Source: Methylothermaceae bacterium (lineage in GTDB: Bacteria > Pseudomonadota > Gammaproteobacteria > Methylococcales > Methylothermaceae). From it: a DNA stretch of 64,000 nucleotides. The position numbers were made by a program, and so were the translations under genes. The notes below the pieces were generated by a model that worked only from the letters and a program-made list of their open reading frames with translations, searched no databases and was not told where the DNA came from. The stretch is from contig JALSIB010000013.1 in assembly GCA_026981855.1 (NCBI GenBank), forward strand, positions 1 through 64,000, in the 5' to 3' direction. Of the stretch, positions 7,198-61,059 are shown piece by piece (the first letter of the stretch is position 1; each line of letters opens with the position of its first letter).

Positions 7198-9237
7198 ATG
7201 ACAACCTACCGACACTGGCGACTGGAAACCGACGGGGAGGGGTTTGCCTGGCTGCATTTCGATCATGCCGACGCCTCCACCAATGTCCTCTCGTCCGAGG
7301 CACTTGCCGAGCTGGGAGAACTCATCGACCGCTTCCATCGACATCTCCCCCGCGGACTGGTCATTCTTTCCGCCAAATCCAAGGGTTTCATCGCCGGTGC
7401 CGATGTCAGGGAATTCACCCGCATCGAGAACCGCCGGCAGGCGCTGGACCTGATCCAGACCGCCCAGCGGCACTTTCACCGTCTGGAACGGCTTCCCTGC
7501 CCTACCATCGCCAGAATCCATGGTTTCTGCCTGGGCGGCGGCCTGGAACTGGCCCTGGCCTGCCATTACCGCGTCGCCTTGGAAGAACCCGGTACCCGCC
7601 TGGGTGTTCCCGAAATCCGCCTGGGCATCCACCCCGGATTTGGCGGCAGCGTGCGGCTGATTCGGCGGATCGGCGCACCCAAGGCGTTCGAAATGATGCT
7701 GAGCGGCAGGACCATCGACGCCCGGACGGCCAGACGCCTGGGCCTGGTGGACCACGCGGTGCCGGAGCGCCACCTGGACCGTGCCTGCCGACATCTGTTG
7801 CAGCATCCGCCCCGCCGCAAACGACCTGCCTGGTGGCTGAGACTCAGCGATACCGCACCTGTCCGCCCGCTTTTCGCCGAGCTGCTGCGGCGCCAGGTGG
7901 TCAAGCGGGCTCCGCCCAAACATTATCCCGCCCCCTATGCCCTGATCGATCTGTGGCAGCGTCACGGCGCCGGCTCCGACGCCATGTTCGAGGCCGAGGC
8001 CGAGTCGGTGGCCGATCTGATTCTGACCGAGACCTCGCGCAATCTGGTGCGGGTCTTTTTCCTCCGCGAACGGCTCAAAGGACATGGCCGCAAGGACAAA
8101 ACCCCGTTCGAACAGGCCCATGTCATCGGCGCCGGGGTGATGGGGGGCGACATCGCCGCCTGGTGCAGCGTCCAGGGCCTCAAGGTCGGCATCCAGGACC
8201 GGGCCCCCGAATACGTCGCCCCCGCGGTGCAGCGCGCCTGGAGGCTGTTCGCCCGCAAGTTCAAACGCGGCCACGAACGAACCGCGGCCGGGGATCGTTT
8301 CATCCCCGACCCCAAGAGCCTGCAACTCGGACGGGCCGATGTGGTGATCGAGGCCATCATCGAGAACCTGGAGGCCAAGCGGAATCTGTTCAGAGATTTG
8401 GAGTCAAGCGTCAAATCCGACGCGCTGCTGGCGACCAACACTTCCAGCATCCCGCTGGAAGAACTGGCCGAGGCATTGCGGCAACCCGAACGCTTGGTGG
8501 GCCTGCACTTCTTCAACCCGGTGGCCAAGATGCAGCTGGTGGAGGTAGTGCGCGGCGTCCGGACCAGCGAGGCGTGTGCGGCAAAGGCAGCCGCTTTCGC
8601 CCACCGGATCGGCAAACTGCCGCTACCGGTCAGGAGTGCCCCCGGTTTCCTGGTCAACCGGGTGCTGATGCCCTATCTGATGGAAGCGGTGATCATGCTG
8701 GAGGAAGGGGTGCCGGCGGAAGCCATCGACCACGCCGCCACCGATTTCGGCATGCCCATGGGGCCCATCCTGCTGGCCGACACGGTGGGACTGGACATCT
8801 GTCTGGCGGTGGCCGACATTCTCAGCCGGCAGCTGGGCGGTGAGGTGCCCACCCTGCTGCGGGAGAAAGTCTCCGCGAAGCAGCTTGGCAGAAAGACCGG
8901 GAAAGGCTTCTATGCGTATAAACGAGGCAAACCCGTTGCCCGGAAACATGCCGAAAGCCCTCTGCCCCAAGAGGCCATCGAGGAAAGGCTGATTCTGCGG
9001 CTGCTCAACGAATGCGTGGCGGTGCTTGGGGAAAAGGTGGTGGAGGATGCCGATCTGGTGGATGCGGGGATGATCTTTGGCACCGGCTTTGCCCCTTTCC
9101 GGGGCGGGCCGATGCATTATCTGAAAAAGCGGGGTATCGAGGCGTGTTTGAACCGGCTGGAGGCCCTGACGCAGCGATATGGCGAGCGGTTCAAGCCGGA
9201 CAAGGGTTGGGAAGGGCTGAAATGCGTCGGGCAATGA
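7198..9237 (+). CDS. fadJ: FadJ-type enoyl-CoA hydratase / 3-hydroxyacyl-CoA dehydrogenase
   Basis: A 679-aa bifunctional beta-oxidation enzyme. Residues 1-190 are a crotonase fold (IAGADVREF; GFCLGGGLELALACHYR oxyanion region; GIHPGFGGSVRL). From about residue 308 there is an NAD-binding Rossmann motif (VIGAGVMGGDIA), then GLHFFNPVAKM with the dehydrogenase histidine and two 3HCDH C-terminal domains. GAGG precedes the ATG in the fadI-fadJ spacer. The terminal 70 bp (9141-9210) recur at 9869-9938 beyond a toxin-antitoxin pair, so this gene's 3' end has been duplicated or displaced. Confidence 0.92.
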   Translation: MTTYRHWRLETDGEGFAWLHFDHADASTNVLSSEALAELGELIDRFHRHLPRGLVILSAKSKGFIAGADVREFTRIENRRQALDLIQTAQRHFHRLERLPCPTIARIHGFCLGGGLELALACHYRVALEEPGTRLGVPEIRLGIHPGFGGSVRLIRRIGAPKAFEMMLSGRTIDARTARRLGLVDHAVPERHLDRACRHLLQHPPRRKRPAWWLRLSDTAPVRPLFAELLRRQVVKRAPPKHYPAPYALIDLWQRHGAGSDAMFEAEAESVADLILTETSRNLVRVFFLRERLKGHGRKDKTPFEQAHVIGAGVMGGDIAAWCSVQGLKVGIQDRAPEYVAPAVQRAWRLFARKFKRGHERTAAGDRFIPDPKSLQLGRADVVIEAIIENLEAKRNLFRDLESSVKSDALLATNTSSIPLEELAEALRQPERLVGLHFFNPVAKMQLVEVVRGVRTSEACAAKAAAFAHRIGKLPLPVRSAPGFLVNRVLMPYLMEAVIMLEEGVPAEAIDHAATDFGMPMGPILLADTVGLDICLAVADILSRQLGGEVPTLLREKVSAKQLGRKTGKGFYAYKRGKPVARKHAESPLPQEAIEERLILRLLNECVAVLGEKVVEDADLVDAGMIFGTGFAPFRGGPMHYLKKRGIEACLNRLEALTQRYGERFKPDKGWEGLKCVGQ

Positions 9238-9287: not shown

Positions 9288-9557
9288 TCAACCGCGGTAC
9301 ACCTTTCGCCGGTGCCCTACGCGAATGACAAGGACAATCAGGCAGTCGTCTTCTATTTTGCAGATGATGCGATAATCCCCGACACGATAACGCCATAAGC
9401 CACTCAGATGGCCAGTCAGGGGTTTTCCAAATCTTTTTGGGTCCTCGGATTGCGCCAAACGGTTTTGCAAAAAATCTCGTATGCGTTTTGCAGCCTGTCG
9501 ATCCAGCCGGCGCAGCCACTTTCTTGCCTCACCGCTATACTCAATCGTCCAGGTCAA
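9288..9557 (-). CDS. RelE/ParE-family toxin
   Basis: Small basic protein of 89 aa with the RelE fold signature: WTIEYSGEARKWLRRLD at the start, GLWRYRVGDYRIICKI in the centre and VIRVGHRRKVYRG at the end. TTG at 9557 is chosen as the start because it lies inside the last codons of the antitoxin gene, which ends at 9541, giving the short overlap typical of such pairs; an ATG at 9581 would add eight unlikely residues. Members of this family are ribosome-dependent mRNA interferases or gyrase poisons; which applies here cannot be read from sequence. It is inserted immediately after fadJ, convergent with it. Confidence 0.85.
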   Translation of the reverse strand: MTWTIEYSGEARKWLRRLDRQAAKRIRDFLQNRLAQSEDPKRFGKPLTGHLSGLWRYRVGDYRIICKIEDDCLIVLVIRVGHRRKVYRG

Positions 9558-9774
9558 GCCCGCCCCACACTTCTTCCGCACTGTAACGGCGTTCCTGACC
9601 TTTCTTGAGGCGTTCTAGCACGAGCTCGGCTTCGTAAATATCTTCAAGATCTTCAAGATACTCCTCCAAGGCCTGGCGCAGATAAAAGGACATATGTCGT
9701 CCGGTATGCTCTGACAGATGCTTCAAACGGTCGTAAAGTTCATCCGGCAAACGGACAGCGAGTTGATGGGCCAT
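9541..9774 (-). CDS. Ribbon-helix-helix antitoxin of the RelB family
   Basis: Protein of 77 aa beginning HQLAVRLPDELYDRLKHL, a ribbon-helix-helix DNA-binding segment, with an acidic helical tail (EEYLEDLEDIYEAE) ending in a toxin-binding region. ATG at 9774 is preferred to 9792 because a palindrome (9785-9800) covers the latter and is probably the operator. The gene precedes and overlaps the toxin. Together they form a self-regulated type II toxin-antitoxin operon placed between fadJ and a second fadJ tail. Confidence 0.85.
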   Translation of the reverse strand: MAHQLAVRLPDELYDRLKHLSEHTGRHMSFYLRQALEEYLEDLEDIYEAELVLERLKKGQERRYSAEEVWGGLDLDD

Positions 9775-9800: not shown

Positions 9801-9868
9801 ATGCAATGCATTCTACCTCGTATTTGCTTTTTGGGGAATGATCGAAAGTGCTGTATACAAGATGGGCA

Positions 9869-9938
9869 GGCCTGTTTGAACAAGCTGGAGGCCCTGACGC
9901 AGCGATATGGCGGGCGGTTCAAGCCGGACGGGGGTTGG
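9869..9938 (+). pseudogene. Displaced copy of the fadJ 3' end
   Basis: These 70 bp match the fadJ tail at 9141-9210 with 64 of 70 identities by eye. They encode ACLNKLEALTQRYGGRFKPD against ACLNRLEALTQRYGERFKPD. The reading frame is preserved, but no upstream fadJ sequence is present and the frame continues into unrelated sequence until a stop at 9995. The copy has the same orientation as fadJ, and the RelBE-like pair lies between the two. The remaining sequence from 9939 to 10286 shows no recognisable gene. Confidence 0.85.
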
Positions 9939-12741: not shown

Positions 12742-14868
<2,127 letters not shown>

Positions 14869-21308: not shown

Positions 21309-21347
21309 CGCGCTCTCCCATACGGGCCGTTTCGTTTCCCGGCGGCG

Positions 21348-21353
21348 TATAAT
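21348..21353 (+). promoter_or_regulatory. Perfect -10 box placed for a leaderless jetA transcript
   Basis: TATAAT ends eight bases before the jetA ATG at 21362. Transcription starting 6-8 bases after the box would begin at about 21359-21361, leaving zero to three leader bases. No ribosome binding site is visible between the box and the start. The -35 region (around GGCCGT) is poor, as is common where an activator or read-through also contributes. Confidence 0.5.
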
Positions 21354-21361
21354 ATCCCCCC

Positions 21362-22825
21362 ATGAGCTTCCATGAACTCAACGCCCGCTTCCGCAGGCTG
21401 TATCAGGAGCATCCGGCATGGCGCCTGTTGCGGGTGGAAAACGCGCCGTTGATCCTGGCCTTCGTCGCCGACCTGTTCGAGGAAACCAACGAGATCCCCT
21501 TCGGCCGCGCCAAGGTCGCCCTGGACACCGAGCTGGAGGAATGGCGCCGGCAAGGGGTGTTGGAAAGCGAAGTCAACGCCACCACTTATCTGCGTCAGTG
21601 GATTCAGGCCGGGTGGCTGAGGGAGCTGGACGACAATCTGAGCAAGACCGATGCCTGCGAGATCGCCCTGCGGTTTTGCCACCAGCTGGAACAACGGGAA
21701 AGCCACGCCACCGCCTCGCATCTTCGAATCGTCCAGGACGCGGTCCGCGACCTGTCGGTGGCCCTCAACCCCGACCCCAAGGAACGGATCGCCCTGCTGG
21801 AAGCCCGCAAGGCCGAAATCGAAAGGGAACTGTCGGACCTGGAAGCGGGCATCGTCCACGAGCTTTCCGAGGCGGAACAGCGGGAACGGATGATCGAGGT
21901 CTATCAACTGGCGGCGGTGCTGACGGGAGACTTCAGGCGGGTGGAGGACGAGATCCGCCGCATCGACCAGGATCTGCGGGTACAGATGATCGAATCGGGC
22001 GGCAGCCGTGGCGACGTCATCCTCAACCTGCTGGAACAGGAACAGCTGCTCGCCGACAGTGACGCCGGACGCGCCTTCGAGGGATTCTTCCAGCTGTTGT
22101 GCGACCAGAACCGCAGCACCGAACTGCGGGAACAGCTGAAAAAGATTCTCGCTCTTCCCGCCGCCCGGCATTTGAGCGAGCGGCAAAGGCGTTATCTCGG
22201 CAAACTCATGCGCGAACTGACCCGGGAGAGCGAACGGGTGTTCCAGGTGCGCCGCCGTACCGAGGAGAAACTGCGGCAATTCATCGAAAGCGGCACCGCC
22301 AACGAAATGCGCGCCGTGGACCGGCTGCTGGGCCGGCTGGAGCGGATCGCCGTCGGATTCAAGGACGGCGACCTCCCCTTGCGCCGGGAAACGAGCCTCA
22401 CCCTCGCCAGTGGAAAGCCCAGGTTCCAGTCGCCGGCCAGCCTGGGACTGAAATGGCCGGAAGCGCGGCTCGACACCCGGGGCGTGGAGGAACAGGCGGC
22501 CAGCCGCACCCCCGGCGGGATCGTCCTGGAACAACTGCTGACGGTCCAGGCGATGGAGGTGGCGGCAAAGATCCGCGACGCCCTGGAAAACAGCCCGCTT
22601 CCCCTCGGCATCGCCGCCCTGATCGAAAGACTGCCGGTAGAAGCCGGACTGGAGGAACTGGTGGCCTTCCTGCGGGTCGCAAGTGCCGTGGACGCCACCC
22701 GCCTGCCCGGCCGTGAAACCGTGACGATCCGCGACCGCAACGGTCAGCGGCTGCGGGTCGAGATCCCCCGTTTCCTGCTCGCCAGGGAGCAGTTTCCGGA
22801 CGATCTGGAAGAAATCCAGCTGTGA
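21362..22825 (+). CDS. jetA: Wadjet subunit JetA (DUF3375, kleisin-like)
   Basis: A 487-aa DUF3375 protein, first gene of a type I Wadjet anti-plasmid system. In the characterised systems JetA is the kleisin that bridges the heads of the JetC SMC dimer and carries JetB. Visible features are the N-terminal winged-helix-like region (LRVENAPLILAFVADLFEETNEIPF), the segment EWRRQGVLESEVNATTYLRQWI, and long helices with heptads (about residues 140-230, EARKAEIERELSDLEAGI). Length is normal for the family. It lies 53 bases after the response regulator gene and 18 before jetB. Identification rests on this domain plus the strictly conserved gene order. Confidence 0.92.
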   Translation: MSFHELNARFRRLYQEHPAWRLLRVENAPLILAFVADLFEETNEIPFGRAKVALDTELEEWRRQGVLESEVNATTYLRQWIQAGWLRELDDNLSKTDACEIALRFCHQLEQRESHATASHLRIVQDAVRDLSVALNPDPKERIALLEARKAEIERELSDLEAGIVHELSEAEQRERMIEVYQLAAVLTGDFRRVEDEIRRIDQDLRVQMIESGGSRGDVILNLLEQEQLLADSDAGRAFEGFFQLLCDQNRSTELREQLKKILALPAARHLSERQRRYLGKLMRELTRESERVFQVRRRTEEKLRQFIESGTANEMRAVDRLLGRLERIAVGFKDGDLPLRRETSLTLASGKPRFQSPASLGLKWPEARLDTRGVEEQAASRTPGGIVLEQLLTVQAMEVAAKIRDALENSPLPLGIAALIERLPVEAGLEELVAFLRVASAVDATRLPGRETVTIRDRNGQRLRVEIPRFLLAREQFPDDLEEIQL

Positions 22826-22843
22826 CCACCTGACGAACACTCT

Positions 22844-23593
22844 TTGGCCAATGACATGAATCAGGAACAAGCCGACTTTTTCGAACTGCTGCGGGGGAAA
22901 AGCAACGACCTGTCCCCCGCCGAACCCGCCTCTCCGCCGCCGCAGGAAGAAACGGCCGCCAGCATGGAATCCGAGCCGCAGCGGGCCGCCGAGGAAGGAC
23001 AGGAAGCGGGCCGCCTGCCCCCCGAAGCGCGCCGCGCCCTGGTCGGGCTGCTGCGCCACGGGGTCGTCATGGCGAGCGACAAGCGCCGCATGTTCGAGTC
23101 CCTGTGCCGCCACCGCGAACCCATCCAGGCGCATCTGGCGGACATGTACCTGCGGCTGGTGGTGGACGAACAGGCGGGGATGGCGCTGGTGCTGCAAAGA
23201 CAGCCGGAAGATCCCGGCGAGGACGTCACCACCCTGATCAGCCGTCGCCCCCTCACCCTGTACGACACCCTGCTGCTCCTGGTGCTGCGCAAGCACTATC
23301 AGGAACGCGAGACGGCCGGCGAGCAGCGGGTGATGATCGACAGCGAACGGATCGAGAACGCGCTGCGGCCGTTCCTGCCCCTCACCCAGAGCAGCCGCGG
23401 CGACCGGCGGCAGTTGAGCGGCGCCCTGAAAGCCATGAAGGAGCGCCGCATTCTGGCCGCCGTGCGGGGCGAGGAGGACCGCTTCGAGATCACGCCGGTG
23501 ATCCGCTACGTGGTCGGCGCCGAATTCCTCGAGCGGTTGCTGGAGGAATACCGGAAACTGGCCGCAGCCGCCGCTTCCGGGGACGCATCATGA
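22844..23593 (+). CDS. jetB: Wadjet subunit JetB (DUF4194, kite-like)
   Basis: A 249-aa DUF4194 protein. In type I Wadjet, JetB is the small winged-helix (kite) subunit bound to JetA, comparable to MukE. The N-terminal 60 residues are low-complexity and acidic. The conserved core begins near RRALVGLLRHGVVMASDKRRMFESL and includes LTLYDTLLLLVLRKHYQE and LKAMKERRILAAVRGEEDRFEITPVIRYVVG, the typical winged-helix end. The start may be TTG 22844 or ATG 22856; neither has a clear ribosome binding site. jetC follows after 33 bases. Confidence 0.92.
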   Translation: MANDMNQEQADFFELLRGKSNDLSPAEPASPPPQEETAASMESEPQRAAEEGQEAGRLPPEARRALVGLLRHGVVMASDKRRMFESLCRHREPIQAHLADMYLRLVVDEQAGMALVLQRQPEDPGEDVTTLISRRPLTLYDTLLLLVLRKHYQERETAGEQRVMIDSERIENALRPFLPLTQSSRGDRRQLSGALKAMKERRILAAVRGEEDRFEITPVIRYVVGAEFLERLLEEYRKLAAAAASGDAS

Positions 23594-23626
23594 ACACCAC
23601 TCGTTTTCTCCGCATTCCGGCGGTGA

Positions 23627-26600
23627 ATGGAAAAACCGGATAAGGCCATGACCCAAAACAACGTTCAATCCCTGTTCCAGTGTGGCGCCATCCGCCTGTG
23701 CGAATTGTCGGTCTACAACTGGGGTTCGTTTCACGGCCTCCACACCGCCCGCATCGACCCCCGGGGCACCCTCGTCACCGGCGACAACGGGGCCGGCAAA
23801 TCCACCCTGGTGGACGCCCTAATGGCGCTTTTGCTGCCTGCCGGCAGGGCCACCTTCAACATCGCCGCCGCCCAGGGGGACCGCAGCGACCGCAGTCTGC
23901 TCTCCTACATCCGCGGCAGTTACGGCAGCGCCCATGACGGCGGCCGCACCCGGGTGCTGAACAAGCGCGAAGGGGCGGTGGTGACCGGCCTGCGCGCCCT
24001 CTACCGGGCCGACGACGGCTCCGGGATCACCCTGGCGGCGCTGTTCTGGATCGCCCATGCCGGCAGCGCCCTGGCCGATCTCAAGCGGATCTACGTGGTC
24101 GCGCGCCGCGATCTGGGCCTCAAGGAACTGCTCGACGCCTTCGGCGACGGAGACATCCGGAGCCTGAAGCAAACCCTTCGCCGCGACCCCGCCATCCAAT
24201 ACGGCGACGACCGTTTCACCGAATACCAGGAAAGCTACCGCCGCCTGCTCCATTTGGATAACCCCAACGCCCCCGCCCTGCTGGCCCGGGCTCTGGGGTT
24301 GAAGAAGATCGACGACCTCACCGCCCTGATCCGCAATCTGGTGCTGGAGCCCAGCACGGTACGCGACGACGCCCGCCAGGCGGTGAACGAATTCGCCGAC
24401 CTGGTGGGCATTCACGAGCAGCTCCTGGACGCCCGCCGTCAGCAGGGGGCCCTGGCCGAACTCCCCCAGGTGGAAAAGGAATTGCGACAGGCCGAAACCG
24501 AGCTGCGGCGACTGGATGCGGAACTGGCCGCGCTGCCGGTGTGGTTCGGGCTGCAATGCGCCTCGCTGTGGCGGCAACGGGAACAAACCATCGCCGCCGA
24601 ACTGACGCAGGCCAACCGCCGGCTGGAGGAACTGGAACGTCACCTCGCCGCAGGAGAAGAGCGGGTCGAACGCTGTCATGCCGACTACCTGCAGGCCGGC
24701 GGCGAACGCATCGAACTGCTGAAGAAGGAACTGGAAACCGCCCGGGAGAAGCTCGCCGAAGTCAACCGCCGCGCCGCCGACTACCAGAAAACCGCGACCC
24801 GCCTGGAGCTGGACGCCACCCTGAGTGAACCGGCGTTTCTGGCCAATCAGAGCCGGGCCACACAGGCCCGGGAACGCATCGAAGGGGAAAAGATCCAGGC
24901 CCAGGACCACTTCGCCGCCCTGTCCGCCCGGCTGGGCAACGCCCAGGAAACGCGGCGGCAGCTGGAGGAGGAAATCGCCGTCATCGAGGCCCGCCCCGAC
25001 TCCAACATCGACCCCAGGTTCCAGCAATTGCGCGACGAGATGGCCGCCGCCCTGTCGCTGGACAGGAGCCGGTTGATGTTCCTCGGCGAACTGGTGGACG
25101 TGAAGGAGGCGGAACGCCCCTGGCAGGGGGCCATCGAACGGGCGCTGGGAGGGCTCCGCACCACCCTGGCGGTGCCGGAAGGGGACTTTCCCCTGGTCAC
25201 CCGCTGGCTCAACCAACGCCACACCGGGCTCCACGTGCGGGTCCAGGTGGTGCGCGCCGCCTCCGGACAGGCCGAATTCCTGGAAGACGGTTTCCTGCGC
25301 AAGCTGGTGTGGCGGGAACACCCTTACCGGGAGTGGGTAAAACATCATCTCGCCCGGTTCGATCTCCATTGTGTCGCCGACACCGAAACCCTGGACCGCA
25401 CGCCGTTTTCCATGACCCGTCAGGGGCTGGTGCACCTGGAGCGGGGACGGTTCGAAAAGAAGGACCAGCAACGCATCGACGACCGCCGCGCCTGGCAACT
25501 GGGATTCTCCAACAAGAACCGGCTGGCGTTGCTGAAACAGGACGCGAAACGGCTCGAGGAAGAGACCGCCGCGCTGCAGACCGGCGTCGCCCGCGCCCGC
25601 CGGGATCTGGACGCCCTCGGCCGGCGCGAAGGTCTGTGGGAAAGGCTGACAGCCTTCCGCTGGGAGGAAATCGACGTTCCCTGGTGGCAGACCCGGGTCG
25701 GGCGCCTGGACGAGGATCTGACGCAATTGCAACAGGCGGGCGGCGACCTGGCCAAGGCCCGGCAGCGATGGGAGCAGGCCAAGGCCGAACTGCAACGCCG
25801 CCAGAAGGAACGGGCGGAACGCCAGGAACAGCTGGGTATCTTGAAAAACCGGCTGGAAAATGCCCGCGCCCAGCGGCAGCGGGCCCTGAAAGCGGCCGAA
25901 CCCGGCATGGAGGAAACGCTGCGGGAGGGTCTGCAAAGAAAGACGGGGCTGTTGAAAGACGCGCAACTGGAAGAGGCGGCCAAGATCGAGGCCGGGCACC
26001 GTCAGCGCATCGAGTCCCAACGGATCACGGTGCGCAACCGCAGGGAACGCGCCAGCCGCACCGCCGTGGGCATCATGACCGGTTTCCGCACCCGCTGGGA
26101 AGTCATCGCCGCCGACTGGGGCGTCGATCTGGCCAGCCTGACCGATTATCTGGGCCATCTGGACCGGCTGCAACGGGAGGGACTGCCGCAGCTGGTGGAA
26201 AAATTCCGCGAACGCCTCAACCGCCACACCACCCAGTCCCTGGCCCGGCTCCGTTCGCGCATCGACTCCGAGCGCGAGGACATCTTCGACCGCATCACCA
26301 CCATCAACGGGGTGCTGAAACGCACCGAATTTCGCCCCGGCAGCTATCTCAGGCTCGGCATCAAGAACGAACAACACGAACATGTGCAGCATTTCAACCG
26401 GCTGCTGCAACAGGTGATGGCGCAAGTCACCAGCGACGACCACGAGGCCCGCTTCACCGGCCTCCAGGCGGTGATCGAAATCCTCGACAAGGCCAGCAAC
26501 CCGGCCTCGGCCCACACCCTGGAAAGTCTGCGGCTGCTCGACCCAAGGCATCAACTGTCCTTCTACGCCGAGGAGATCGGCAGCGCCGACGGCGAGGTCC

Positions 26601-27007
26601 GCGACGTGCTGATGTCCTCGAGCGGCAAATCCGGCGGGGAAAAGGAATCGTTCGCCGGCACTATCGTCGCCGCCAGCCTGGCTTACGTCCTCACGCCCGA
26701 CGGCAGCGACCGGCCCGTCTACAGCACCGTGTTCCTGGACGAGGCCTTCTCCAATACCGCCGAGGCGGTCAGCCGCCGGGTGCTGCGGGTATTCAGGGAG
26801 CTGCACCTACACGTCAACCTGATCACCCCTTACAAGAACCTCAACCTCGCCCGTGAATCGGCGCGCTCGCTGTTGATCGTCGAACGGGACGCCACCTCCC
26901 ACGAAAGCCGCCTGTGTGAAGTCACCTGGGAGGAAATCGACCGCCAGCTGGACGCCCGTGCCCGGGAGATGGGGGTGGTGGCCACGGCGGGGGCCGAAGC
27001 CCCGTAA
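23627..27007 (+). CDS. jetC: Wadjet SMC-like ATPase JetC
   Basis: A 1126-aa SMC/MukB-like ATPase, the loop-extruding motor of Wadjet. Walker A (VTGDNGAGKSTLVDALMALLL, lysine about 58) is followed by long coiled coils (about 260-480 and 650-880) around a central hinge region (about 500-600). The signature SSGKSGGEKESFAG is near residue 997 and Walker B STVFLDEAFSN near 1035. The D-loop and a C-terminal head complete a functional-looking ATPase. ATG 23648 is an alternative start. jetD begins 9 bases downstream. All motifs needed for ATP hydrolysis are intact. Confidence 0.95.
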   Translation: MEKPDKAMTQNNVQSLFQCGAIRLCELSVYNWGSFHGLHTARIDPRGTLVTGDNGAGKSTLVDALMALLLPAGRATFNIAAAQGDRSDRSLLSYIRGSYGSAHDGGRTRVLNKREGAVVTGLRALYRADDGSGITLAALFWIAHAGSALADLKRIYVVARRDLGLKELLDAFGDGDIRSLKQTLRRDPAIQYGDDRFTEYQESYRRLLHLDNPNAPALLARALGLKKIDDLTALIRNLVLEPSTVRDDARQAVNEFADLVGIHEQLLDARRQQGALAELPQVEKELRQAETELRRLDAELAALPVWFGLQCASLWRQREQTIAAELTQANRRLEELERHLAAGEERVERCHADYLQAGGERIELLKKELETAREKLAEVNRRAADYQKTATRLELDATLSEPAFLANQSRATQARERIEGEKIQAQDHFAALSARLGNAQETRRQLEEEIAVIEARPDSNIDPRFQQLRDEMAAALSLDRSRLMFLGELVDVKEAERPWQGAIERALGGLRTTLAVPEGDFPLVTRWLNQRHTGLHVRVQVVRAASGQAEFLEDGFLRKLVWREHPYREWVKHHLARFDLHCVADTETLDRTPFSMTRQGLVHLERGRFEKKDQQRIDDRRAWQLGFSNKNRLALLKQDAKRLEEETAALQTGVARARRDLDALGRREGLWERLTAFRWEEIDVPWWQTRVGRLDEDLTQLQQAGGDLAKARQRWEQAKAELQRRQKERAERQEQLGILKNRLENARAQRQRALKAAEPGMEETLREGLQRKTGLLKDAQLEEAAKIEAGHRQRIESQRITVRNRRERASRTAVGIMTGFRTRWEVIAADWGVDLASLTDYLGHLDRLQREGLPQLVEKFRERLNRHTTQSLARLRSRIDSEREDIFDRITTINGVLKRTEFRPGSYLRLGIKNEQHEHVQHFNRLLQQVMAQVTSDDHEARFTGLQAVIEILDKASNPASAHTLESLRLLDPRHQLSFYAEEIGSADGEVRDVLMSSSGKSGGEKESFAGTIVAASLAYVLTPDGSDRPVYSTVFLDEAFSNTAEAVSRRVLRVFRELHLHVNLITPYKNLNLARESARSLLIVERDATSHESRLCEVTWEEIDRQLDARAREMGVVATAGAEAP

Positions 27008-27016
27008 GGACAGCAA

Positions 27017-28210
27017 ATGGCAAACGAAGCCGCCTGGGGGCTCCTGCCCGATCAAGTGATCACGGCGCTGCGCCGGCGCGAATGGGAAAACACCGCCCGT
27101 CTGCGTGCCCGCCTGGACGGCAGCCGCCCCTTTCCCATCCGCTTCTCCCTCAAGCCCCCCACCGCCAGCCAGGCGTTGGAGAATCTGGATCACTTCCGCC
27201 GCTTCGTGCGGTTGTGGCAAGACTGGCCCCATCCCTCCCTCATTCGATGGGAAAGCAGGCACTGGCGCCGCCTGGGCAGACAGGACATACCCGTCGCCGT
27301 GCAAATCGATTCCATGTCCCGGCTGATAGACATCCTCGGCCCCGGCGCCCGCGCCCGAAGCCGGCGCTGGCAGACCTTGATGGAGCCTCTGCTGGAGCTG
27401 GAGCCCCGTCTTTCCCCCGTCCTGGTCCGCCATCTCACGGCCCTGGAAGAAATGGGCGAGGAGGAGACCCGGCTGCTGGCCAGGCTGCTGCCGCAGCTGC
27501 GGGCGGGCATGGGACAGGGCGATTATCTGAGGGCTCTGCCGGTCAGGGAAGTGGACACCAAATTCGTCGAAACCCGTCAGCGGTTGATCGGCGAGTGTCT
27601 CGATGTCATCCATGCAGGGGCGGTATCGGCACAGGGTGGGTTGTCCCGCTGGCTCGGGTGCCTCGACACCCCGAAAGGCTGGCTGTTGGTCCGCCCCCTG
27701 TGCCCACGTTCGCGCTCGCGGCTGGCGGGGCTGGGGTTGCTGCAACTGGATTTCCACGGCCTGCTCACCCATGAACTGCCGGCGGAGCACATTCTGATCG
27801 TGGAGAACAAACAGAGCGGTTACGCGCTTCCCCCGCTCGAAGACACCATCGCGGTATTCGGGGGTGGAAGGAACACCGCCTGGATGCGGGCCCTTTGGCT
27901 GAACCACAAGCACCTGGGTTACTGGGGCGACATCGACACCTGGGGGCTGGCGATCCTCAGCGACGCCCGGAGCCACCAATCCCATCTGGACGCCCTGATG
28001 ATGGATGAGGCGACCTTGCAATGCCACCTCTCCCGCATGGTGGAGGAAAAAAACCCTCATGAATCCCTGCCGCCGCATCTCACCGAAGAGGAAACCCGGC
28101 TGTTTCTATCGCTTCGCAACGGACATTTCGGGAAAAACCGGTTGGAGCAGGAAAGACTGGCGCCGGATTACGTGCTGGAAAACCTGAACCGCTGGCACGG
28201 TTCGGGCTGA
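27017..28210 (+). CDS. jetD: Wadjet nuclease JetD (DUF3322/DUF2220, Toprim fold)
   Basis: A 397-aa protein with the N-terminal DUF3322 region (IRFSLKPPTASQALENLDHFRRFV) and C-terminal DUF2220 Toprim-like domain. The Toprim acids are visible as ILIVENKQSG (about residue 260) and the DxD-type motif GYWGDIDTWGLAIL (about 304). In characterised type I systems JetD is the nuclease that cleaves circular plasmid DNA once JetABC has reeled it in. It ends the operon. A degraded second copy of its Toprim part lies 6 kb downstream at 34111-34235. Confidence 0.94.
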   Translation: MANEAAWGLLPDQVITALRRREWENTARLRARLDGSRPFPIRFSLKPPTASQALENLDHFRRFVRLWQDWPHPSLIRWESRHWRRLGRQDIPVAVQIDSMSRLIDILGPGARARSRRWQTLMEPLLELEPRLSPVLVRHLTALEEMGEEETRLLARLLPQLRAGMGQGDYLRALPVREVDTKFVETRQRLIGECLDVIHAGAVSAQGGLSRWLGCLDTPKGWLLVRPLCPRSRSRLAGLGLLQLDFHGLLTHELPAEHILIVENKQSGYALPPLEDTIAVFGGGRNTAWMRALWLNHKHLGYWGDIDTWGLAILSDARSHQSHLDALMMDEATLQCHLSRMVEEKNPHESLPPHLTEEETRLFLSLRNGHFGKNRLEQERLAPDYVLENLNRWHGSG

Positions 28211-28340
28211 ACTGCATTTTCCAGGAAGGGTGGCAACGACATCGGACCGTCTTGACCGTCTTTTCAACCGATCTGCTTTCCGGAACCACCCCTCTCGACC
28301 CGGCCGGCGGCCGTCCCTGGCAAAGGGGCACCTCTTCCGA

Positions 28341-28874
28341 TCAACCACGTTTCCGTAAAGGGTAGCGGGAGAAATCGATATAATTCCGCCCCACGTTTTG
28401 TTGGAAAAATCCGATGGCCAGCGGCTCTCCATCGATGGGTCTGAGTTTCAGCCGGCCATTCGCGGTGATGTCGGAGATTTCCGCCAACAGGTGCAATCGG
28501 CGCTTGTCCACCTTGACCTCCATCGCCACTCGATCCCCCACCTTGTAGAGCACGCCTCCATGGCGAATCTCCGTCACCGGCTCGTAGGGTTCAAGATAAC
28601 GGCTTTTCCACAAATAAGGCGTACAGAGAATGGGCTGGGTTTCAGAACCAAACTTTATTTCATAGCCCGAAGCACGGACTCTCTTCACCTTACCCAGCAT
28701 ATAGGTCTGTTTGCATTGGGCGATCACCCGGCTGCCCACGGGGTAAGTCGGATCCGATTTGAAGCCCAGATACACCACCAAACCCATCACCATCAACAAA
28801 CCCACACCCAGCGGAATCATCCATTTTTCCGACAACTTCTCCAGACCACGTTTCTCGACCACCGCTACGTTCAT
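28341..28874 (-). CDS. Membrane-anchored protein of unknown function
   Basis: A 177-aa protein with one N-terminal transmembrane helix (WMIPLGVGLLMVMGLVVYLGF). The periplasmic part contains two short beta-rich repeats of the type VGSRVIAQCKQTYMLGKVKRV and VGDRVAMEVKVDKRRLHLLAEI, which look like paired SH3/Tudor-like barrels. A GGAGGGGAAAAG ribosome binding site supports the start. It is the last gene of the minus-strand operon that starts at 33851. I do not recognise a family. The 130 bases between jetD and this gene show no feature. Confidence 0.7.
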   Translation of the reverse strand: MNVAVVEKRGLEKLSEKWMIPLGVGLLMVMGLVVYLGFKSDPTYPVGSRVIAQCKQTYMLGKVKRVRASGYEIKFGSETQPILCTPYLWKSRYLEPYEPVTEIRHGGVLYKVGDRVAMEVKVDKRRLHLLAEISDITANGRLKLRPIDGEPLAIGFFQQNVGRNYIDFSRYPLRKRG

Positions 28875-28898
28875 CTTTTCCCCTCCCGTACAGTGCGT

Positions 28899-29240
28899 TC
28901 ACATGCCGTTTTTCAACCAGTACAACATCCACCAATATCCCGCCACAGTCGCCATGATGGCGAGACCCAGGGCGGCAAAAAAGCCGATTCCCCGCTCCAG
29001 CAAAACGATCAGAACGACGAACAGCAACAGCGAAGGCAATACAAGCCACAAGACATCTCTGGAAAACTGCGTCACCTTCACCACATCTCCGCTTTCCAGA
29101 TACATCCACACCATCGCCAACACGGAAACGAGGGGTATCGAGGCCAAGGTGGCGCCGATCAGCGGATTCCTCTTGCCGGCCTCGCTCGCCCCCACGATCA
29201 GAAGGGCGCTAAGCAGGGTTTTGAACAGTAGATAGCCCAT
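28899..29240 (-). CDS. DUF3147-like small membrane protein
   Basis: A 113-aa protein with four predicted membrane helices (LLFKTLLSALLIVGAS, NPLIGATLASIPLVSVLAMVW, LVLPSLLLFVVLIVLLE, FFAALGLAIMATVAGYWWM), the size and topology of DUF3147 proteins. Its start lies 32 bases inside the end of the upstream PepSY gene, so the two are translationally linked. Function is unknown; the operon suggests a part in copper or other metal acquisition. Confidence 0.7.
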   Translation of the reverse strand: MGYLLFKTLLSALLIVGASEAGKRNPLIGATLASIPLVSVLAMVWMYLESGDVVKVTQFSRDVLWLVLPSLLLFVVLIVLLERGIGFFAALGLAIMATVAGYWWMLYWLKNGM

Positions 29241-30270
29241 GCCGTTTCCTCAGGCGTCGCTTTCTGGACCAACGGATGATCATGCCGGTCACCAGCAACA
29301 CTGTGGGGCCCCCCCCCGCGGCGGCCAACAGACACTTGCCGGGGGCACCCAGGATCTGTCCCGTATGCAGGGCATAAATCCAGCCAAGCGACCGCACGCC
29401 GGTAGCTTCCATCTCCGGATCCGGACGAACGCCGGCATCCCGTCCGGGCCCCACGAGGAACCATCGCCAGTACACGGGATGATCGACCCCCCGCCCGCAA
29501 TCCATCGCCGCCCGCCAAGGCTCTCTTTCCTCGAAAGGCGTTTCCACGACACGCAGCCGACAGCCGGGATTATGGCGGCGAAGAGAGGCGAGAACGGATG
29601 TCAGAGTCATGCTTCGCGTTATTTCCGGACCATCAGGGTTCTCTGTGCCCGGACTGGCCTCCCCGGACAGTACCTTGCTTGTCCAAAGTCCGGAGAAAAC
29701 CAGCAGCCAACCCGTCACTAGACTGAACATAAGGACTGGCAACACCACCAACCCCAACCCTCCGTGCAAGCCGGACAAGCCTATACGCCTGGGCAACCGC
29801 CACATCAGAAGCCCGGAAACCACAAATCCCAAAAGAACCAAGCCGGCCACCCCCACCCACCATTTGCCCTGATCCCCCAGCATCAAGCGCGAATGAAAGC
29901 GGTACAGCCACTCCGCCAGCTGCGTTCTTCCCTCGGTCACCCGGATGACTTCGGCCCGCCGGGGATCCACCGTGATCCTGACCTCTCCCGCCGTTGCGCC
30001 GAAAGGGTCCGCACTGAGATACGTCACTTCCGCCACCGCTTGTCCCCGATGGGGGAGTACCAGTTTCCAGTGGCCCGGTCGATCCGCAAGGTGCCGGCGG
30101 GCCGCCGCCAATATCCGCTGCGGCATGAATTGTCCGGTTTCCGAAGCCATCGTCCCCGGCAGACCGGCATCCAGACTTTTCTGCACCAGCAGAAGACTGC
30201 CCGACAGGGTCCAGAGGGACACCAGAAGACCCAGGGACAATGCCAGCAACCGGTGGAACCGGCGTATCAC
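29209..30270 (-). CDS. PepSY-domain membrane protein
   Basis: A 353-aa protein of the PepSY-associated transmembrane group. Helix 1 (LLALSLGLLVSLWTLSGSLLLV) precedes a periplasmic PepSY segment, then WLYRFHSRLMLGDQGKWWVGVAGLVLLGFVVSGL, LHGGLGLVVLPVLMFSLVTGWLLV, a second periplasmic region and a final helix (VLLVTGMIIRW). Such proteins accompany TonB-dependent receptors for metal chelates, where some act as inner-membrane reductases or ligand processors. The GTG start overlaps the stop of the preceding gene. Confidence 0.82.
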   Translation of the reverse strand: MIRRFHRLLALSLGLLVSLWTLSGSLLLVQKSLDAGLPGTMASETGQFMPQRILAAARRHLADRPGHWKLVLPHRGQAVAEVTYLSADPFGATAGEVRITVDPRRAEVIRVTEGRTQLAEWLYRFHSRLMLGDQGKWWVGVAGLVLLGFVVSGLLMWRLPRRIGLSGLHGGLGLVVLPVLMFSLVTGWLLVFSGLWTSKVLSGEASPGTENPDGPEITRSMTLTSVLASLRRHNPGCRLRVVETPFEEREPWRAAMDCGRGVDHPVYWRWFLVGPGRDAGVRPDPEMEATGVRSLGWIYALHTGQILGAPGKCLLAAAGGGPTVLLVTGMIIRWSRKRRLRKRHGLSTVQNPA

Positions 30271-30863
30271 GTCGCCACCTCTCCGTTCTTGAAGCGCACG
30301 AAAAAGAAAATCACCATGGTGAAAAACGCCAACAGGCTGAAGATCGCGGCGACCTTCAACCAGGGAGTCGAATCGCCTCCCAGCCCCACCGTCAGCGGAA
30401 TACGCAACCTGTCGTCGCTCAGGCCCGTCTCTTCACCGAACTGGATGATCAAGGCGTAACGCCCCGGATGATCGAAATCGACCTTGAGTTCCGCCACGCC
30501 GTGGGGATAAAGCTGCGAGGGAACGGTTTTCAACGTCTTCATGGCGCTCCCGTCCTCCTCCCTTTCCTCCACCACCGACAGCGATATGGGCAGCGAACGC
30601 ACGTCCCGGTCGATAAAGTCGATACCAAAATAAGTGGTTCCCGTTCTGGGCAATCGTTGGCAGAAACGTTGCAATGCCTGGCGCTTTTCCCGAGCGCCAG
30701 TGGGTATTTTGGCGGGCGGTTGAAAGGCGTTGAAGTGAACGATATAGAAATCGGTCCCGACCAGACAGTCGCTTCCGCCCTTCTTGATGGGGGCGGCGGC
30801 CAAGTCAGCGGCGGCCAAACAGCCTAGCAATACGATCAAATAACGAATTGGATGTCTTTTCAT
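30267..30863 (-). CDS. Exported membrane-anchored protein, unknown function
   Basis: A 198-aa protein with an N-terminal signal peptide (YLIVLLGCLAAADLAAAP), a periplasmic beta-rich domain of about 130 residues and a C-terminal anchor helix (LKVAAIFSLLAFFTMVIFFFV) with a basic tail. The segment VAELKVDFDHPGRYALIIQFGEETGL suggests an immunoglobulin-like or DUF4198-type sandwich, common beside CopC-like proteins. The start lies inside the end of the copC-like gene (59-base overlap). Function unassigned. Confidence 0.7.
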   Translation of the reverse strand: MKRHPIRYLIVLLGCLAAADLAAAPIKKGGSDCLVGTDFYIVHFNAFQPPAKIPTGAREKRQALQRFCQRLPRTGTTYFGIDFIDRDVRSLPISLSVVEEREEDGSAMKTLKTVPSQLYPHGVAELKVDFDHPGRYALIIQFGEETGLSDDRLRIPLTVGLGGDSTPWLKVAAIFSLLAFFTMVIFFFVRFKNGEVAT

Positions 30864-31248
30864 GGGTCACCCTGTCCAGATTCTTAGGATTCGGCCCCTC
30901 GATCCTGAATTGATATCGGCCCGTCACAATATGGCCGTCCGCCGACTGAACACGGTAGCGGACCAGATAATTTCCCGGATGAAGGTCTGTCGTCAGTTCG
31001 GTACGTACTATGCTGGGATCGAGCAGATCCCGTTTCGCCTCCCCATCATCCACCCGCTGGTGGTCGGGATCGATGACCGCCAGGGCAAGATACCGTTTGC
31101 CAACCGGCGCATCGAAACGCAGCTCCACCACTTGAGGCGACTGACTCAACTGATCTCCCTCACCCGGGTTGGCTTCCACCAGAATCGCATGTGCAGCGGC
31201 CCACACGGGGAACAGGAACAAGCTCAAGGTGACGATGGATTGCAGCAT
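30805..31248 (-). CDS. CopC-like periplasmic copper-binding protein
   Basis: A 147-aa protein. ATG 31248 is preferred to 31290 because it opens a clean signal peptide (LQSIVTLSLFLFPVWAAA) ending just before AHAILVEANPGEGDQL, so the mature protein would start with the histidine that ligates Cu(II) in CopC. The C-terminal motif SADGHIVTGRYQFRIEG is the conserved CopC ending, with the second histidine. It lies between the TonB receptor gene and the PepSY gene, supporting a copper role for the operon. Confidence 0.85.
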   Translation of the reverse strand: MLQSIVTLSLFLFPVWAAAHAILVEANPGEGDQLSQSPQVVELRFDAPVGKRYLALAVIDPDHQRVDDGEAKRDLLDPSIVRTELTTDLHPGNYLVRYRVQSADGHIVTGRYQFRIEGPNPKNLDRVTHEKTSNSLFDRIARLFGRR

Positions 31249-31411
31249 TGATCGCTTGTGAATGAGTTTGGTTATCAAAATAAATCGCATAATTTATGCC
31301 ATTACGTCTTTATTGAAGAATGGGGGGCTCCAGCCGGGTGGCTTGAAGCCTGTCGTGTCAAATCACACACCCAATAAGGTATTTGGTCCAAACTTTTCTG
31401 AATTCCCTGTC

Positions 31412-33466
31412 TTAGAAGAACACCTGCACCGTTCCCCGGATCTGCCGGGGCAGGACCGGATGAAAATGGACATCCTCCACCCCGGGGCCGGGTTCTCCCT
31501 GAAGACGCGAGGCATAGTAATAGGCGATATCGAAATCCTGACTGTCGGTCAGATTGAGCACGTCCAGGGAGATCCGCAAACGTTCCCGCCAGCGCCATCC
31601 GACCCCCAGATTGACAATCGTGGTACTGCCGGCTTCCACCGTCCCCGCTTCGTTCAAGGGAACGGCACCGAAATGTCTGACTCGGATGGAACCGAACCCC
31701 CCCGAAGGATGATCGACAGTGATTCCGCCGGTGATGACCCGGCCCACCGAATTGGGGATCTGATCTTCTTTCCTGCTCACATCCTCGAAGCGCGCACGGG
31801 TCAGGGCCACATCGAAATCCAGGGTCAACCAGTCGAAGGGCTGGTAATAATTGCTGAACTCTATCCCCATCCTGTGACTTTTCCCGGTCGGCTCGGTGGT
31901 GCCCGCATCCCCTACAAACACCAGCTCCGAATCCAGTTTCAGCCACCAAAGTGCCAAGGTGGAACGAAGTCCCGGCAACCATGAAGTCCTCAGTCCCACT
32001 TCCATTCCCCTGGAACGCACCAGCGGATCCACGGGTCGCAACGGCTCACCTGTCACCGGATCAACCCGGCTGGTTACTCCCCGGGCGTCGTTGCTGTGAA
32101 AGCCGACTCCGTAGTTGAAATAGATTTCAGTATCGTACCAAGGACCCAGAGCGATCCCGAACTTGGGGCTGACCTGAAAATCGGAGCGGTCGCCGGTATT
32201 GGCGGAAATATACCGATCTTCCACATCGAACCAGTAAATATCGCCCCGCAGACCCGCCAGTGTCCGGATCTTTTCATGCCAGCGGGTGGTGTTCTGGAGA
32301 TAGAAACTGAGGGAGGTCTGGTTCACTTCATCGATCCGGACCGGATTCAAGATATGGCGGCGGCGGGTCCGGTAAAGGGCCACTTTGGGAATGGCATCGT
32401 GGCGCACCTGGGCGCCCACGGTAAAGCCGCTGTCGATGTCCCGCCAGATCCAGTGCCAGTGGTGATCGACATCCGCGCCGGTCACGAAACGCCGGTCCTT
32501 CTGGAAAATCTGATCGCCATTTACCGGATCTTCCAAGAAAAAAGTGAAATTGGAATACAAACGCAAATCGGAATAATATCCATATATGGTGACACGGGTA
32601 TCACCGTAACGGGAGTCATTCCAGCCGTTGAAAGTCAGGCCGAATCGCTTGCTCTGGCCCCCATCGCTCGGATCAATGGTTCCCAGACGCGATATGAGAC
32701 CCTGCCGTACCGCCCTCCGGGGAATCTGATCGGTGGCGGTCCAGTCGTTGAAATAGGCATTGGCCCCCAGGGAAAACCCTTTCCCCACCCCTTCCCAAGT
32801 GTACTTGACCAGTCCCTTGTAACGCTGCATGTCCATGGGTTCCTTCCACGGGCCGTCGTAGAACCCCAACTCTCCACCCACCAGCAGGGTGCCCCGACCG
32901 AAGTCCAGGGAATCCGCCGCCACCGTGCGGTAGTAATGATCTTGGCCGAAGGTTTGCCGAACGAATCCTTTATCCAGCCGGGAAACGGTCTGAAAACGGG
33001 CGTAGCCGGCGGATGAAAAATCCCCGATCTGGGTGTAATACGAACCCTTGCCGTATTCGATGTAATCGATCAGCTCGGGAATCAGGGGGTTGAGATCGAG
33101 ATAGCCCTGACCATGGCCATGAGTGGGAAGGTTGATGGGAACTCCGTCCACAAAAGCGGCAAAGTCCGTTCCATGATCCAGGTTGAATCCCCGCAAAAAA
33201 TACTGGTTGGCTTTGCCGGCCCCACTGTGCTGGGTGGCCAGCATCCCTGGCACCACCTCCACCAGCTCTCCCACCCGCAGCCACGGTCTGAATTCAAATT
33301 CGGGCCGGCCTACGAATCCCTGGGAAGCGGAATGGCTCAAACCCAGCAAATCACTGCCCCTTCCCACCACTTCCACATCATCCAACCGGATCGTGTCAGC
33401 CCAGCCGACGGCTTGCCAGAACATCCAGGCCAAGGCCATCCCCTGGCCCCATTTACTTCCTTGCAT
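31412..33466 (-). CDS. TonB-dependent outer-membrane receptor, possibly for a copper ligand
   Basis: A 684-aa TonB-dependent receptor. After a signal peptide (MALAWMFWQAVGWA) the plug domain contains IRLDDVEVVG, VGELVEVVPGMLATQHSG, NQYFLRGFNLDHGTDFAAFVDGVPIN and DYIEYGKGSYY. The barrel ends in aromatic RGTVQVFF, the usual outer-membrane insertion signal. ATG 33466 follows GGGGAAAAAG. Substrate is not readable from sequence; the adjacent CopC-like and PepSY genes, and the Ton system downstream of a copper ATPase, point to a copper chelate. Confidence 0.88.
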   Translation of the reverse strand: MQGSKWGQGMALAWMFWQAVGWADTIRLDDVEVVGRGSDLLGLSHSASQGFVGRPEFEFRPWLRVGELVEVVPGMLATQHSGAGKANQYFLRGFNLDHGTDFAAFVDGVPINLPTHGHGQGYLDLNPLIPELIDYIEYGKGSYYTQIGDFSSAGYARFQTVSRLDKGFVRQTFGQDHYYRTVAADSLDFGRGTLLVGGELGFYDGPWKEPMDMQRYKGLVKYTWEGVGKGFSLGANAYFNDWTATDQIPRRAVRQGLISRLGTIDPSDGGQSKRFGLTFNGWNDSRYGDTRVTIYGYYSDLRLYSNFTFFLEDPVNGDQIFQKDRRFVTGADVDHHWHWIWRDIDSGFTVGAQVRHDAIPKVALYRTRRRHILNPVRIDEVNQTSLSFYLQNTTRWHEKIRTLAGLRGDIYWFDVEDRYISANTGDRSDFQVSPKFGIALGPWYDTEIYFNYGVGFHSNDARGVTSRVDPVTGEPLRPVDPLVRSRGMEVGLRTSWLPGLRSTLALWWLKLDSELVFVGDAGTTEPTGKSHRMGIEFSNYYQPFDWLTLDFDVALTRARFEDVSRKEDQIPNSVGRVITGGITVDHPSGGFGSIRVRHFGAVPLNEAGTVEAGSTTIVNLGVGWRWRERLRISLDVLNLTDSQDFDIAYYYASRLQGEPGPGVEDVHFHPVLPRQIRGTVQVFF

Positions 33467-33482
33467 CAACTTTTTCCCCGGT

Positions 33483-33851
33483 TTATTCGTATGATTTTTT
33501 GACCTCGGTCAACAGAGTCACCACCTGAGCCAGCAGGTCCGATGCCTTGTCAGTTTTCCCTTTTCTCAGCGCGCTCTTGGCCATTCGCAACTGGGAACTG
33601 GATTTCTGCATAGGTGCGGTGGTTTTCATCTTGTTGGATTCCTTGGCCAGCTTCCGGGCCTCGGCAGTGGCCGCCAGAGCTTCATCTGTATTGCCCTGCT
33701 TCAGCATTTCCAGAGCCTTGCTGGACAAGGCAAGCACCTCATTCAGATTCTCCGGCGGATCCTGATAGCGACCACCGGCCTGAACCTGAAAAGAAACGAT
33801 AGCGACTATCAAAATTAAAAGGTAACGCCCCAAAAACTTGGCTCTTTCCAT
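33483..33851 (-). CDS. Small exported helical protein
   Basis: A 122-aa protein with a signal peptide (FLGRYLLILIVAIVSFQVQA) and a mature region of amphipathic helices (NLNEVLALSSKALEMLKQGNTDEALAATAEARKLAKE; SALRKGKTDKASDLLAQVVTLL). ATG 33851 follows a strong AGGAGG site. The helix-repeat layout resembles small periplasmic metal-binding proteins of the SmbP type, but the His-rich motifs of that family are absent. First gene of the receptor operon, 16 bases before the receptor. Confidence 0.7.
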   Translation of the reverse strand: MERAKFLGRYLLILIVAIVSFQVQAGGRYQDPPENLNEVLALSSKALEMLKQGNTDEALAATAEARKLAKESNKMKTTAPMQKSSSQLRMAKSALRKGKTDKASDLLAQVVTLLTEVKKSYE

Positions 33852-34110
33852 TCTTTCCTCCTGATAAGGCAATTAACATAAATCTTTCAGACACGACATC
33901 TTCGTATCGTACCGAATAGATAAAATGCTTATATCATGCCAAACAATATTTTCTTTTTTAAACATGTAGTTACCACACAGAAACTGCTCGTTTGGATGTT
34001 TGAAATCCGGTGATATCCCACAGTCAGTCCGGGATATCACTCTATAGTGAATGGTAGAGCCCGAAAACCAAATGCTTTGTCATGTTTTATGCGCAGCATG
34101 GTGTCCCAGC
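33852..34110. other. AT-rich upstream region of the receptor operon
   Basis: No gene is visible here. The stretch from about 33890 to 34080 is clearly richer in A and T than its surroundings and must contain the promoter of the minus-strand receptor operon. I cannot fix -35/-10 boxes with confidence. The drop in GC next to a decayed jetD copy suggests a junction. Confidence 0.4.
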
Positions 34111-34235
34111 CGGAAAGGAACACCGCCTGAATGCAGGGCCGGTGGCTGAACTACAAGGACACCGGGGCAACATCGGCGCGTGGAAGCTGATATCCTTCAG
34201 CGACGCCAATTCCGGACACCTGATTGATGGATGAG
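34111..34235 (+). pseudogene. Decayed fragment of jetD (Toprim part)
   Basis: The sequence aligns with jetD from about 27864 to 28011, at roughly 75-80% by eye with small deletions, including seven bases at the GYWGD motif. In the jetD frame it reads RNTA, stop, MQGRWLNYKDTG against RNTAWMRALWLNHKHLG. The tract GGAACACCGCCTG and the end CTTCAGCGACGCC are especially clear. The frame is destroyed. It has the same orientation as jetD and lies beyond the receptor operon. Confidence 0.8.
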
Positions 34236-34269
34236 GGGGCTTACGGCAAGCGGTAAAGGAAGAGGAAAA

Positions 34270-34298
34270 CGGAGATCCCACCGATGGTGGGATCTCCG
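34270..34298 (-). terminator. Intrinsic terminator of the OmpA/DUF4398 operon
   Basis: A perfect hairpin of two 13-base arms (CGGAGATCCCACC and its complement) around a 3-base loop. On the minus strand it is followed by GTTTTCC. It lies 17 bases beyond the OmpA-like stop codon. Confidence 0.75.
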
Positions 34299-34314
34299 TG
34301 GAAACGAAGGTTCT

Positions 34315-35064
34315 TCAACCCTGAATGATGACTTCGACCCGACGGTTCAGTTGCCGTCCTTCGGGAGTCGCGTTGGTGGCGATGGGGCGGGAGGGGCCGT
34401 AACCGACCGCCTTGATGCGCTCGGCGGCGATGCCTCTTTCGATCAAGGCATCCCGCACCGCCTCGGCGCGCTGCTGGGAAAGTTTCTGATTGAATTCGAG
34501 ACTGCCGGTGCTGTCGGTGTGTCCCTCGATGAGCACCGTCTTATCCGGATGGTTCATGAGGTAAGAGGCCAGGGTATCGAGAACCCGGCCGGCGCCCGGC
34601 ATCAGATCCGCCTTGCCGGTGGCGAACAATACGTTGCCCAACGTGACTTCCAGTCCACGGGCGGTCTGCTTGGCCTTGAGTTCCGCCAGCTCCTGCTCCG
34701 CCTTCGACAACTTGGTTTTCAGGGCCTCGACGATCATCCTTTCCCTTTCCTCGCTCAACTCCCGGAAGCGCTGTTCATTCGCCTTTTTCTCGGCAATGAG
34801 CCTCGCGGCCTTGATCTGGGCATCGGCAGTGTAGGCGAGCGCCTCCATGTCTTCCTTCTCCCTTTCCTGATGGGCCTTCTCGGCCGCCTGCAAGGTTTCT
34901 TCCGCCTGCGTCAGTTCCCTGGAAGCCAGCTTCAATACCAAGGGATCGTTCTTCGCCTGTTGAAAATCCGCTTCCGCCTGCACCAGGGTGGTGCTCTTGG
35001 GAATGGAACCACAAGCCGTCAACACGCTCACGAGAAAATAAAACAAAATTCTATGGTTGGTCAT
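34315..35064 (-). CDS. Lipoprotein with DUF4398 and OmpA domains
   Basis: A 249-aa lipoprotein: signal peptide ending in the lipobox VLTACG, an N-terminal helical DUF4398 segment (AEADFQQAKNDPLVLKLASRELTQAEETL), a coiled coil to about residue 135, and a C-terminal OmpA peptidoglycan-binding domain (LFATGKADLMPGAGRVLD, IEGHTDSTGSLEFNQKLSQQRAEAV, GYGPSRPIATN). The product presumably ties the outer membrane to the cell wall. It follows a short DUF4398 lipoprotein gene by 30 bases. Confidence 0.88.
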   Translation of the reverse strand: MTNHRILFYFLVSVLTACGSIPKSTTLVQAEADFQQAKNDPLVLKLASRELTQAEETLQAAEKAHQEREKEDMEALAYTADAQIKAARLIAEKKANEQRFRELSEERERMIVEALKTKLSKAEQELAELKAKQTARGLEVTLGNVLFATGKADLMPGAGRVLDTLASYLMNHPDKTVLIEGHTDSTGSLEFNQKLSQQRAEAVRDALIERGIAAERIKAVGYGPSRPIATNATPEGRQLNRRVEVIIQG

Positions 35065-35094
35065 CTGAGTCTCCAATACGCTGATTCGATTGTC

Positions 35095-35466
35095 TCATCG
35101 AGAGCCAAGTTGTTGTTGCAGCCGCTGAATACTGGCTTCCAGTTCCTTGACCGCCATCTTCGTTTTTTCCGAATCGGCTTTTGCCCAGGCCAGAATCGCG
35201 TCCGCCTGGGCCTCCTTGGCCAGACGCCTCGCTTCCTCGTTGTCACCCTCTGCCGCCGCGCGTTCGGCCTGCTTGAGCTTGGTCCGGGCCCGGTCGAGTT
35301 CGACCGGCGCGAAGGTCTCGGCGTCTTCGGTCAAGGCGAAGCTGATGGCCGTTTTGGCGCTGGCCATGTCGGCGATGGGTTTCGGCGCCCCACAGCCCGT
35401 CATGCCAAGGACGGCGATCAGCGATATCGCGACGGTCCCGGCTCTGATCTTAGGGGTTGCAAACAT
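35095..35466 (-). CDS. DUF4398 lipoprotein
   Basis: A 123-aa lipoprotein. ATG 35466 follows AGGAGGAAACA and opens a signal sequence with lipobox GMTGCG. The mature part is a helical DUF4398 domain (MASAKTAISFALTEDAETFAPVELDRAR...KLKQAERAAAEGDNEEARRLAKEA) and a coiled-coil tail. It is a short paralogue of the helical half of the next protein, with which it forms an operon. Confidence 0.82.
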   Translation of the reverse strand: MFATPKIRAGTVAISLIAVLGMTGCGAPKPIADMASAKTAISFALTEDAETFAPVELDRARTKLKQAERAAAEGDNEEARRLAKEAQADAILAWAKADSEKTKMAVKELEASIQRLQQQLGSR

Positions 35467-35571
35467 TGTTTCCTCCTGATTCGAGTTTGTCACTGGGGAT
35501 ATCGTAAAAGACCATGTTAATACAATTTGGCCAACACTCCTGAAATCCACTCGAAAAAATCCAATATTTTT

Positions 35572-60831: not shown

Positions 60832-61059
<228 letters not shown>

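Follow-up and report, generated by a model that had tools for sequence, protein, structure and literature searches.

The window analysed here, a stretch of 64,000 nt of contig JALSIB010000013.1 from a Methylothermaceae bacterium, carries a Wadjet operon, a copper operon, a short relic of jetD and genes for OmpA/DUF4398-type proteins side by side (Table 1). All four Wadjet genes are intact, and the system is, as judged by its family matches, a type I JetABCD. The operon partners of jetD specify a DUF3375 protein (JetA), a DUF4194 protein (JetB) and an SbcC-like ATPase (JetC), as identified by both Pfam and PADLOC. JetD itself is full length with both of its domains complete (Pfam PF11795, E = 3e-50; PF09983, E = 3e-44), and it matches PADLOC JetD1 (E = 2e-170) as well as the JetD entries 8q72 and 7til in the PDB. 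In this family JetABC forms an SMC-like sensor, and the cutting of circular plasmids falls to JetD, a Toprim nuclease (PMC10586767); going by the published work on the family, the living system would be expected to cleave small circular plasmids.

Table 1. Features of the Wadjet/copper locus (positions in the window)
Feature	Position	Strand	Description and basis
Accessory block	21309-35571		14.2 kb; Wadjet, copper operon, relic and OmpA/DUF4398 genes, between a GGDEF/EAL gene and a TPR-TonB-ExbD-ExbB-CopA cluster
jetA	21362-22825	+	Intact; Pfam, PADLOC JetA1
jetB	22844-23593	+	Intact; Pfam, PADLOC JetB1
jetC	23627-27007	+	Intact; Pfam, PADLOC JetC1
jetD	27017-28210	+	Intact, 397 aa, DUF3322 + JetD_C; Pfam, PADLOC JetD1, PDB JetD; probable source of the relic, matched part 27868-28010
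Copper operon	28341-33872	-	Between jetD and relic; two small proteins, PepSY_TM protein, unknown protein, CopC, TonB-dependent receptor, small YfdX-like protein
jetD relic	34115-34236	+	Codons 285-331 of the 397-codon JetD (Toprim part); blastn, shuffles, gapped alignment, codon positions
Possible weak continuation of relic	34237-34272	+	Up to the terminator hairpin; suggested by global alignment only, alone not significant
Terminator-like hairpin	34269-34299	-	14 pairs; downstream of the OmpA-like gene, directly beside the relic
OmpA/DUF4398 protein and DUF4398 protein	34315-35550	-	Beyond the relic; accessory in the genus

When positions 33900-34330 were compared with the jetD region (27017-28300) by blastn, 34115-34207 aligned to 27868-27967 with 76 of 101 identities (75 %; 65.3 bits, E = 2e-14), and a second piece, 34214-34236, matched jetD collinearly with the first. 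The local alignment score of 34080-34270 was 71, compared with a mean of 19.7 (sd 2.3) and a maximum of 34 for 1000 dinucleotide-preserving shuffles, and the next-highest-scoring place in the window reached 31. Under a second scoring scheme with milder penalties a single alignment of 34115-34236 with 27868-28010 was obtained (score 115), and the right part alone (34211-34236) scored above all 1000 shuffles of 34209-34272. The left edge of the similarity is abrupt, 33900-34113 being at chance level against jetD in comparison with shuffled sequence; on the right, similarity dwindles ahead of the terminator hairpin. These findings show common descent with jetD. Nothing was found in favour of a chance likeness between unrelated sequences, an explanation that is vanishingly improbable given the two collinear pieces and that the shuffles rule out. 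The earlier note on this DNA had aligned 34111-34235 to the Toprim part of jetD at 27864-28011, and had held that a score no better than that of shuffled sequence would speak against the match; the score is not at that level, and the positions proved nearly exact, the true match starting a few bases further in, at 34115 and 27868.

The relic comprises 122 bases, equivalent to 47 of the 397 JetD codons, and sits ∼6 kb away from the intact jetD, on the same strand. Translated in the jetD frame along the alignment, it runs RNTA, stop, MQGRWLNYKD, a 7-base deletion, RGNIGAWK, small indels, FSDA and a 10 + 4-base loss. With an in-frame TGA at ∼34128, and with 7-base, 10-base and 4-base deletions and 1-base indels that shift the frame, the relic has no Toprim-encoding open reading frame. 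It also lacks the acidic Toprim residues: within the motif YWGDIDTWG, GDID has become GNIG, both Asp codons being changed in a D-x-D that is invariant across all jetDs compared. The relic is therefore unable to make JetD; it is non-coding and encodes nothing, and it is most likely without function. The sequence is degenerate and jetD-derived and, as had been suggested, escapes protein-based annotation. The accompanying statement that it contains no open frame holds for the jetD frame, broken by the TGA and the indels, but not for the sequence as a whole, as a 50-codon ATG frame (34082-34234, + strand) runs across the relic, with its first half outside the jetD frame. Chance alone can readily produce a frame this long.

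It is very unlikely that the fragment has been kept for use, either as the 50 aa peptide of this frame or, if the OmpA-gene transcript passes its terminator, as an RNA antisense to jetD mRNA. The presence of the frame, and of a 15-base stretch identical to jetD, would suit such a role. Against it, however, no ribosome-binding site is seen by eye ahead of the ATG, the hairpin terminator separates the OmpA gene from the relic, complementarity to jetD is just 75 % and gapped, and no DNA homologue of the relic was found in 300 other genomes of the order. Rfam likewise gave no match, which speaks against such a role, and a known RNA was rejected on this ground.

With regard to its source, the resident jetD was the top match of the relic among 84 jetD genes, scoring 115 compared with ≤ 53 for the 83 others, whilst shuffles reached 36. 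RNTA and WLN are common to the relic and the resident gene, close relatives having mostly KNVAW or KNIAW and WLK or WLR at these places, although at only 122 bases the placement rests on few sites. Two functional jetDs are expected to differ mainly at codon position 3. The 14 ungapped substitutions between relic and jetD, a small number, fall 6/5/3 on codon positions 1/2/3, which has a binomial P of 0.0002 if 70 % of changes are at third positions (the share assumed for two genes under selection) and a P of 0.05-0.26 under decay models. The pattern thus fits a copy of the resident gene decaying without selection and not a second working jetD, and the relic looks derived from the resident gene by neutral decay. 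The earlier note had looked for support in a best hit among the jetD genes of related species; instead, the best hit was the resident jetD, with no other species near.

As siblings within the genus hold other jetD types elsewhere, indicating several Wadjet acquisitions, the relic might alternatively descend from an independent second Wadjet that formerly stood beside the OmpA-like gene. We consider this decidedly unlikely, as it is disfavoured by both the best-match comparison and the codon-position test, which revealed a far better match to the resident jetD than to any other and no third-position excess of differences. Furthermore, the relic has residues found only in the resident gene among those compared, and no jetA-C remnants accompany it. 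Genome searches returned one jetD and one jetC match only, with no second copy of either. A mobile plasmid or phage origin of the relic was rejected: no plasmid match was found, the only phage match was one of 31 bases in a single phage (E = 0.8), and no JetD relatives were found in viral contigs.

The genes flanking the accessory block are near neighbours in the sibling genome G001, and neither Wadjet, copper operon nor relic lies between them. The order in G001 is CopA-ExbB-ExbD-TonB-TPR, a PepSY-like protein, galU-like/cysC-like genes and the GGDEF/EAL gene, where the PepSY, galU and cysC names come from reading translations and not from a family search. The absence of the 14-kb block from this site in G001 identifies it as an accessory insertion. 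The copper operon is kept in most genomes of the genus, in varying contexts and with a receptor that is 72-79 % identical, and so cannot be called foreign to this genus. In a second sibling, G004, it directly adjoins the TPR cluster, and given this arrangement the copper operon may have been present before the Wadjet. The relic suggests that the Wadjet/copper block was assembled in more than one step.

The best explanation, to which we assign a probability of roughly three in four, is that the relic is what is left of a now dead duplicate of the resident jetD, either whole or partial, that point mutations and small deletions have eroded. This reading draws on the homology, the lost frame and catalytic residues, the resident jetD as nearest relative and the absence of the block from the G001 site. 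The relic is a real, ordinary pseudogene fragment, read here as a scar left by earlier insertion of DNA within a block of accessory genes; alone, it is a small gene fossil of a kind found in every genome. The earlier proposal that a second jetD-like copy once existed is upheld for at least part of the gene. Its alternative, that the copper operon had displaced the original jetD, finds no support: nothing was displaced, because the resident jetD is complete in length and in both Pfam domains, and it is from this gene that the relic looks derived.

The same arrangement would result if the copper operon had been duplicated in tandem together with jetABCD, and if the first copper operon and almost the entire second Wadjet copy had then disappeared. 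Such a history yields the order jetABCD, copper operon, relic, with a relic in the orientation of jetD and from a near-identical copy; however, several deletions are required, and neither the window self-comparison nor genome searches revealed traces of jetA-C or of a second copper operon, making this route unlikely.

Within the preferred reading of a decayed jetD duplicate, the copy may have arisen during block assembly, when an insertion at the 3' portion of jetD duplicated its target, to which we would give slightly less than even odds. Insertion of the copper operon at the jetD end with target duplication is possible. A direct jetD repeat does flank this operon, but it is decayed and internal to jetD, so that under target duplication the far jetD copy must subsequently have lost its 3' end. 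In the empty-site comparison at jetD, G001 is without the whole block, and no sibling was found in which this Wadjet occurs and the copper operon is missing. When the region upstream of the copper operon was compared with siblings for an insertion breakpoint there was no detectable similarity, and there were no gene-fragment repeats around the copper operon in the siblings.

In favour of this mechanism are two further gene-end repeats around ParE-type toxin modules in the same window, both revealed by window self-comparison. The first is a 185-base direct repeat, 98 % identical (60832-61016 and 62287-62471, 1.45 kb apart), that spans the glmS 3' end and downstream sequence and flanks a ParE/Phd toxin-antitoxin pair (61243-61883; Pfam). 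In four siblings fliL comes next after glmS and the toxin module is missing; the module is therefore an insertion with a duplicated flank. With its insert flanked by a direct repeat and an empty site in relatives, the glmS case has the appearance of a recent insertion with long target duplication. The second is a 71-base direct repeat (92 %; 9140-9210 and 9868-9938, 0.7 kb apart), one copy of which lies in the end region of a fadB-like gene (7198-9237) and the other beyond a ParE-type toxin gene (9288-9581).

The 64-kb window holds three repeat pairs of gene and non-coding sequence; the comparison with other sequence that follows was chosen after seeing the window and so is not a test. A sample of 374 kb from other contigs of the genome gave one pair inside a locally repetitive stretch and one non-coding pair, and 400 kb of G001 gave repeats mostly within or between genes. 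One G001 locus, L169 (G001:C1:2000001-2020000), carries a perfect 211-base direct repeat between two reading frames (12400-12610/14242-14452, 1.6 kb apart) and a 155-base non-coding pair at 12965/17214, ∼4.2 kb apart. At L132 5266-6700 (G000:C2) a short-period imperfect repeat at the end of a gene recurs just past that gene.

The relic, glmS and fadB-like cases suggest that, in this genome, duplicated gene ends are the marks of sites where modules inserted. By extension, and as a tentative idea that we hold to be rather unlikely, the lineage might repeatedly gain small modules, selfish or defensive, at the 3' ends of genes, duplicating 70-350 bases of target, with the jetD relic an aged footprint of this process at the Wadjet locus.

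In comparison with JetD of type I Wadjet systems, the relic derives from such a gene, its probable intact source standing upstream in a complete jetABCD operon, but it differs in its reduction to a fraction of the codons, its stop, its frameshifts and its missing Toprim Asp pair. The pattern termed insertion with long target duplication is known from the restriction-modification genes of Helicobacter pylori (Nobusato et al., 2000, Gene 259:99-108, as cited in PMC3031569 and PMC1643837). Unlike the case outlined in those citing papers, the modules here comprise toxin-antitoxin genes and, next to a Wadjet, a copper operon, and the second copy of jetD is incomplete and decayed, so that the duplication event is one we infer. 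Like the Helicobacter pylori case as cited there, a gene fragment is directly repeated around an accessory module, three times in this window.
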